Virus record (IMG/VR): IMGVR_UViG_3300035661_000262
Span: 1 to 29,751 of that record
Reading direction: 5' to 3' (one strand)
Source: a virus
DNA: 29,751 nucleotides
Below, one piece after another: positions 17,222 through 19,802 of this stretch (within the stretch, counting starts at the first letter, position 1; each line of letters starts with the position of its first letter). Made by a program: the position numbers and the translations under genes. A model generated the notes under the pieces. It saw nothing but the letters and a program-made list of their open reading frames with translations. It was not told where the DNA came from and searched no databases.

Positions 17222-17266
17222 AAGTGCCTCTAAGGGGTCGTTGGGGCCTACTCGAAAAGGCAATTC

Positions 17267-17285
17267 CGTAATCTAGAGTTACGGC
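17267..17285 (-). terminator. Hairpin between tRNA-Asp and the phosphoesterase gene
   Basis: CCGTAA / TTACGG stem with a 7-base loop, followed a few bases later on the minus strand by CCTTTTC. It may be a weak terminator or simply protect the tRNA trailer. Confidence 0.4.
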
Positions 17286-17320
17286 GTTATATCCATGTTG
17301 TAACTACCCAACAATTAATT

Positions 17321-18585: not shown

Positions 18586-18897
18586 TTACCTCCAGTCCCA
18601 CTCGCCACCACCAGCCTTAAGACCGTCATGCTTCTTGGGATCGTATTCTTCCCACCATCCGTCAATATCGTCAGAATACGGATCGTCGTCCTCAGGATCA
18701 GCGTCATCAGGACGGTCAGATTCAGGGTAGATACCATAGGATTCTGCAAACTGAACCGCATAGTCCCAGGCGGTATCGTTTAAGCTGTTTGGATACGTAT
18801 CAGCCTTCCAATCGTTATATTCTTCGTCGCTAACAAGGTATGCCTCAGCACTCTCCATACCCACTCCGCAGAATACGCGTAAAATCATTTTGTGCAT
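18586..18897 (-). CDS. Unknown highly acidic protein
   Basis: This 103-residue protein has a hydrophobic N-terminal strand (MHKMILRVFCGVGM) and a very acidic C-terminal part with runs such as DDADPEDDDPYSDD, ending GGGEWDWR. Such DNA-mimic-like acidity occurs in some phage anti-restriction or anti-defence proteins, but I see no specific match. AAAGGAATTGAA precedes the ATG, just after promoter P7. Confidence 0.7.
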   Translation of the reverse strand: MHKMILRVFCGVGMESAEAYLVSDEEYNDWKADTYPNSLNDTAWDYAVQFAESYGIYPESDRPDDADPEDDDPYSDDIDGWWEEYDPKKHDGLKAGGGEWDWR

Positions 18898-18925: not shown

Positions 18926-18954
18926 ATTATACATTGAAAAAGAAACAATATCAA
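18926..18954 (-). promoter_or_regulatory. Sigma70-type promoter P7
   Basis: TTGATA, 17 bp, TATAAT; CACTTG overlaps the -35 box. Drives the acidic and zinc-ribbon genes, tRNA-Met, the 18.0-kb gene, tRNA-Val, the folded RNA and tRNA-Phe. Confidence 0.85.
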
Positions 18955-19014: not shown

Positions 19015-19069
19015 TGGTCGGGGCCCCTGAGGTCATGACTTCTCAGGATGCTGCAACAGTGTGGCCCCG
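19015..19069 (-). ncRNA. 55-nt tRNA-like minihelix with encoded ACCA
   Basis: Ends form a perfect 7-bp acceptor-like stem, CGGGGCC / GGCCCCG, followed by A and CCA exactly as in a tRNA 3' end. Inside, CCTGAG / CTCAGG forms a second stem with a 10-base loop stacked next to the acceptor, where the T-arm would be; about 15 unpaired bases replace the D and anticodon arms. There is no TTC-type T-loop. The 5' end touches the stop of a 31-codon gene, the same arrangement as tRNA-Asp. Probably a processed small RNA or tRNA remnant. Confidence 0.5.
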
Positions 19070-19165
19070 TTAGAGTTTTAGTACCTCTACGTCAATGAAT
19101 CCGTGTTCATCGATAGACCAAAGTAGAAATACTTTTGGTTTTTCTGCTAAGTTTAGGTACGTCAT
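19070..19165 (-). CDS. 31-residue peptide between two tRNA-type elements
   Basis: MTYLNLAEKPKVFLLWSIDE and a short remainder ending EVLKL. The ATG is preceded by GGAGGAACCATATAA, in which GGAGGA is the acceptor 3' strand of tRNA-Ile, so cleavage of the tRNA would remove the ribosome binding site. The stop directly precedes the minihelix. Short, so it may be chance, but spacing and signals match the neighbouring small genes. Confidence 0.45.
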   Translation of the reverse strand: MTYLNLAEKPKVFLLWSIDEHGFIDVEVLKL

Positions 19166-19711: not shown

Positions 19712-19802
19712 TGGCGGAAGCTTAGAGAGTCGAACTCTAAAGGCGGTATTAGCACTCGGCAGTTTTCAAGACTGATCCCATCACCAGTTGGGTTGAGCTT
19801 CC
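19712..19802 (-). tRNA. tRNA-Ser (TGA)
   Basis: Class II: acceptor GGAAGCT / AGCTTCC, anticodon loop CTTGAAA (TGA) on a CAGT/ACTG stem, long variable arm, T-arm with TTCGACT, G73 typical of Ser, encoded CCA. Confidence 0.9.

Follow-up and report, generated by a model that had tools for sequence, protein, structure and literature searches.

We report that a virus record of 29,751 bases (the window, that is, the whole stretch of DNA analysed) carries on its minus strand a 55-nt tRNA-like minihelix, which combines a perfect acceptor stem, a second stem abutting it and an encoded CCA with a position that relatives give to a tRNA gene or to another tRNA-like RNA. With somewhat less than even confidence, we favour the reading that this is a reduced tRNA-like element without decoding function that occupies a tRNA slot and would be cut by RNase P behind the stop codon of the preceding ORF and trimmed to its CCA. 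A structured 3' end of the usual kind, whose CCA arose by chance, is nearly as likely. The minihelix and its surroundings comprise the following features:

19070..19165, minus strand: conserved small ORF of 31 aa, MTYLNLAEKPKVFLLWSIDEHGFIDVEVLKL, directly upstream of the minihelix, with homologues in L003, L006, L185, L187 and L009
19015..19069, minus strand: tRNA-like minihelix of 55 nt, made up of an acceptor of 7 bp, a mini hairpin of 3 bp, a 6-bp stem closed by a 10-nt loop, A73 and the encoded CCA
19069-19063, minus strand: 5' acceptor strand CGGGGCC, its first base directly after the upstream stop codon
19059-19051, minus strand: weak 3-bp hairpin CTG-TTG-CAG, within a 15-nt stretch of the minihelix
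19047-19026, minus strand: stem-loop at the T-arm position, CCTGAG-AAGTCATGAC-CTCAGG, abutting the 3' acceptor strand
19025-19019, minus strand: 3' acceptor strand GGCCCCG
19018 and 19017-19015, minus strand: discriminator A and encoded CCA
19008-18990, minus strand: second G+C-rich hairpin CCACCGC-GCATA-GCGGTGG, with no T-run
18926..18954, minus strand: site resembling a promoter (TTGATA-17-TATAAT), a match to consensus alone, which belongs to the next gene and ends the slot
18586..18897, minus strand: acidic ORF of 103 aa, the conserved downstream neighbour that locates the slot in relatives

The structure of the minihelix is real. RNA folding returned it as both the minimum free energy (MFE) and the centroid structure, with an MFE of -23.3 kcal/mol compared with -16.7 ± 3.0 kcal/mol for shuffled sequences (z -2.2; 6 of 200 shuffles equalled it). 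Within a 201-nt context, pair probabilities were 0.83-1.0 for the acceptor, 0.97-0.98 for the second stem and ~0.53 for the 3-bp mini hairpin, and the two main stems were kept in both 201 and 601 nt of context (0.83-1.0). The perfect 7-bp acceptor, discriminator A and correctly placed CCA described in the initial annotation are thus all present at 19069-19015, and every acceptor pair is Watson-Crick. The 10-nt loop contains an 8-nt palindrome, GTCATGAC, through which two copies of the RNA could pair as a kissing loop. Cofolding gave -61.4 kcal/mol for two copies as opposed to -23.3 kcal/mol for one, using a program that does not model kissing loops, and we estimate that about one loop in 100 would hold such a palindrome by chance; we regard a dimer-forming RNA as very improbable.

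The minihelix shares its slot, strand and encoded CCA with phage tRNA genes, but it lacks a decoding arm and a canonical T-loop. Neither ARAGORN nor Rfam detected a tRNA at the minihelix (the latter at its gathering threshold and also at E up to 10), and no other Rfam family matched there. The acceptor has the 7 bp, discriminator and CCA of a tRNA. As had been proposed, the second stem does sit in the T-arm position, directly against the acceptor; however, its 6 bp and 10-nt loop are not the 5 bp and TTCRA loop of a canonical T-arm and, because the loop lacks TTCRA, the minihelix does not qualify as a tRNA with a genuine T-arm. Where the D-arm and anticodon arm would stand there is the weak 3-bp hairpin alone, which, together with the silence of ARAGORN and the Rfam tRNA model, bears out the earlier observation that both arms are missing. 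When aligned to 182 tRNAs from the window and 13 relative loci, shuffled versions of the minihelix matched as well as the minihelix itself in 221 of 300 global and 293 of 300 local comparisons. A fragment of a tRNA-Pro, considered on account of C1-G72/A73, found no support; tRNA-Phe in the window and in L006 likewise has C1-G72.

To gauge how often such a form arises by chance, we used a strict scan that permitted Watson-Crick pairs only and required a 7-bp acceptor, an abutting stem of 5-6 bp and a terminal NCCA within 45-66 nt. Across 1500 dinucleotide-shuffled versions of the window the scan returned 18 matches, or 0.012 per window, two of them with a 6-bp second stem; 107 further viral loci (1,374,694 bases, with overlaps kept in) gave one distinct match. 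Therefore, ~0.01-0.02 such forms are expected per window, a rarity that is somewhat flattered because the criteria were set once the element had been seen. A looser scan (G-U pairs permitted, 40-130 nt) found 17 matches not called by ARAGORN across 16 loci, compared with 4.75 expected; we rejected these as one family, since many have tRNA-like T-loops and are probably tRNAs that ARAGORN missed.

These results bear on the alternative of an ordinary structured 3' end, in which two G+C-rich hairpins after the last ORF of the unit would stop exonucleases or aid termination and the CCA would be coincidental. An NCCA is expected after about one stem in 64, the loop of the minihelix is not a T-loop, and the second hairpin (19008-18990), which is itself strong (z -3.9), follows next and is in turn followed by the promoter-like site of the next gene. 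Against this stand the joint rarity of an exact 7-bp acceptor, an abutting second stem and a CCA, the use of the site as a tRNA slot in relatives and the lack of a T-run: a scan for intrinsic terminators (hairpin plus T-run) listed neither the minihelix nor the hairpin at 19008-18990. The initial annotation had placed the minihelix between a stop codon and a terminator; the first part holds, the minihelix starting on the base after the stop, whereas the terminator does not. We consider a structured 3' end quite possible, if a little short of the favoured tRNA-like element.

The slot itself was examined in relatives gathered through NAMPT (5 loci), Ro60 (10 loci) and the 103-aa downstream ORF (11 loci). 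A profile built from five copies of the 31-codon ORF and searched against 27 sources (the window and these 26 loci) matched in the window, L006, L003, L187 and L185, and weakly in L009 (E 7e-4); L180 (E 0.43) was left out of the count, as were repeats, L181 being the L006 contig, L189 the L003 contig and L188 near-identical to the contig of L003. The slot holds a tRNA-Gly(GCC) in four of the five distinct relatives: the tRNA starts 1-3 nt past the stop of the 31-codon ORF in L187, L185 and L009, and overlaps that stop in L003. The fifth relative, L006, has in its place a non-decoding tRNA-like RNA, and its ARAGORN tRNA order is identical to that of the window (Ser, Cys, Ile, slot, Met, Val, Phe, Asp). 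Relatives thus place a tRNA-Gly, a non-decoding tRNA-like RNA or the minihelix at one and the same site.

The start point shared with the tRNA-Gly(GCC) genes of L003, L009, L185 and L187, and a short GTTGC that resembles a Gly anticodon loop, would also suit a decayed and now functionless tRNA-Gly(GCC) gene. Decay, however, should break the acceptor and spare patches of sequence, whereas the stems of the minihelix pair perfectly and no stretch of it shows significant similarity. Its alignments to the four slot tRNA-Gly genes were not significant (equalled by between 108 and 495 of 1000 shuffles), which leaves descent from tRNA-Gly as guesswork, and we judge a decayed gene unlikely.

In L006 a structured and possibly pseudoknotted RNA comes after the 31-codon ORF, and behind it the tRNA-like RNA (43 Rfam bits); in our reading the latter pairs G-1 with C73, has G at position 33 and lacks CCA. 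L003 has both RNAs as well, further along and ahead of the same downstream ORF. In both phages (L006:4836-4995 and L003:12325-12485) the tRNA-like RNA lacks CCA and U33 and has a shortened anticodon arm, and we read its G-1:C73 as histidine-like. A pattern search for this tRNA-like RNA returned those two phage groups alone plus five unrelated stretches, and a metallophosphatase search returned the L003 group alone. The pair was rejected as a Y RNA, as it lacks the Y-RNA motif and its one Rfam match above threshold is the tRNA match in L006. A separate element between tRNA genes of L009 (2705-2783) is CCA-ended, with a 7-bp acceptor and a T-arm-like stem carrying a CTTCGACA loop; it has no recognisable D-arm, and its MFE fold disagrees with a tRNA-like reading.

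For the favoured tRNA-like element, we propose the following path. Judging from gene order and strand, the minihelix would be co-transcribed with tRNA-Cys, tRNA-Ile and the 31-codon ORF. RNase P could then cut at 19070/19069, just behind the stop of the 31-codon ORF, since the stacked 7-bp and 6-bp helix with its 3' ACCA resembles an acceptor/T-arm substrate, and 3' exonucleases would trim back to the CCA, which would yield a stable RNA of ~55 nt together with a defined 3' end on the mRNA in front. Processing of this kind is plausible by analogy: passages of PMC11143913 describe cleavage by RNase P of model hairpins made of an acceptor and a T-stem-loop, and name two phage RNAs other than tRNAs that it cuts, M3 RNA and C4 antisense RNA. 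In sequence and fold the minihelix has the stacked acceptor-like helix and 3' RCCA of such non-tRNA substrates. Like the synthetic model substrates, it stacks an acceptor on a second stem, ends in CCA and has no D-arm or anticodon arm; unlike them, it is natural, its second stem has 6 bp and a 10-nt loop with no TTCRA in place of a true T-loop, and it carries 15 extra nt. The same source states that T-loop replacement reduces cleavage of model substrates (PMC11143913). With M3 RNA and C4 antisense RNA the minihelix shares being a small phage RNA for which a tRNA processing route may be expected. Should the predicted processing take place, the minihelix would provide a natural example of a minimal substrate for tRNA maturation in a phage, and would indicate that phage tRNA clusters can include non-decoding RNAs. 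The tRNA-like structures of plant RNA viruses lie at the genome's end, have a pseudoknotted acceptor and are charged. The minihelix likewise would give a viral transcript a tRNA-like 3' end, but it is internal, belongs to a DNA phage and shows no pseudoknot.

The points against the favoured tRNA-like element are that our searches found no homologue of the minihelix, and that it has no significant similarity to tRNAs and no T-loop motif. Homologues were sought in phages by a distant search with 131 nt and a near search with 10 kb, in viral contigs by a pattern with both loops fixed and the stems free, and in genome contigs by way of the neighbouring protein, and none of these searches found any. 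A pattern of stem plus CCA matched 82 stretches, mostly in G+C-rich DNA among the 80 compared (L098-L177), none of which bore a convincing likeness to the minihelix. A literature search on phage tRNA-like minihelices or decoys gave no match by title or abstract start.

The acceptor, A73 and CCA of a tRNA are the contacts of synthetases, EF-Tu and CCA-modifying toxins. The minihelix has all three, and might therefore serve as a decoy for such acceptor-end enzymes or be charged by them. Minihelices are charged by some synthetases according to a section of PMC9976931, which also gives G72 and A73, likewise G35 and G36, as required for proline identity. C1-G72/A73 of the minihelix recalls these end determinants of proline, but the anticodon determinants are absent and all charging determinants are incomplete; aminoacylation, as suggested in the initial annotation, thus found no backing. 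The suggested decoy for tRNA-cleaving defences fared no better: the best-known of these enzymes cut the anticodon loop, and phage tRNAs are proposed to resist them through loop mutations, as described in part of PMC10264068, whereas the minihelix has no anticodon loop to offer. A charging or decoy role is therefore unsupported, and we give it a slim chance. Equally slim is the chance of a more specific version, in which the phage would have reduced a tRNA gene to a mimic of ~55 nt with no D-arm or anticodon arm that matures like a tRNA and competes for CCA-end enzymes such as toxins; if true, this CCA-end type of decoy would differ from known phage tRNAs that replace anticodon-cleaved ones.

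The window encodes a phage Ro60 (23827-25158), and the minihelix had also been put forward as a Ro60 ligand, which we took to mean a Y RNA. On both sides of Ro60 a repeated motif, AACRG-TTACTTC ... CYGTT-N-TTNTTC, was found in the window, L003, L007, L008, L009 and L016; one copy in L016 matches Rfam YrlA (RF02553) with 40.9 bits and E 1.8e-7, short of the gathering cut-off of 69. We built a Y-RNA model from five candidate copies of four relatives, with the window excluded from the seeds; in 20 relative loci it gave 24 matches with E no greater than 0.5, five of them its own seeds, and we infer that its motif binds Ro60. In the window the model matched at four sites, with E between 1.5e-4 and 0.024: 25256-25185, 23616-23522, 23688-23618 and 25407-25259. 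All four are on the minus strand and flank Ro60. At the minihelix neither this model nor Rfam YrlA matched. Like YrlA-type Y RNAs, the minihelix would be a tRNA mimic in a Ro60-bearing phage, but it lacks the D-arm, the T-loop and the Ro60-stem motif, and the Y-RNA candidates of this phage adjoin Ro60 instead. Since the Y-RNA matches all flank Ro60 and none falls on the minihelix, its reading as a Ro60 ligand is unsupported and, in our view, most improbable of all. Of the tRNA-like element as first described, the acceptor geometry and encoded CCA stand, joined here by its rarity by chance and by its place at a site where relatives have tRNA-Gly or a tRNA-like RNA; the Ro60-ligand, decoy and aminoacylation roles found no support. 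We read the Y-RNA candidates of L016 and L009 as YrlA-like in that they carry a tRNA-like domain in permuted order: T-arm, closed acceptor, D-arm. By pattern, there are up to five candidates per Ro60 locus (L003).

The DNA polymerase of the window is nearest to those of T5-like phages (49% identity), a label that we presume from the taxonomy of the phages with the nearest polymerases. Besides Ro60, the window encodes NAMPT and a Nudix/nucleotidyltransferase protein, and its RNAs include 15 tRNAs (ARAGORN) and a permuted tmRNA (RF04321; 19906-20159, minus strand). The permuted tmRNA is also present in L002, L003, L006, L007, L009 and L016; the match in L003 covers 780 nt, perhaps owing to a long insert, and two-piece tmRNAs of phages have already been reported, as a passage of PMC9004378 indicates. 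tRNAs with anticodon CTA ('Pyl' in ARAGORN), possibly amber suppressors, occur in the window (17235-17314, minus strand), in L002 (14140-14215) and in L016 (7578-7664). Finally, the Rfam tRNA-Sec model matched the window at 19716-19802 (minus strand; 48.5 bits, threshold 47), but in our reading the anticodon loop there has TGA, so that we take it for a tRNA-Ser missed by ARAGORN; similar elements occur at L003:9878-9968 and L006:2827-2916.
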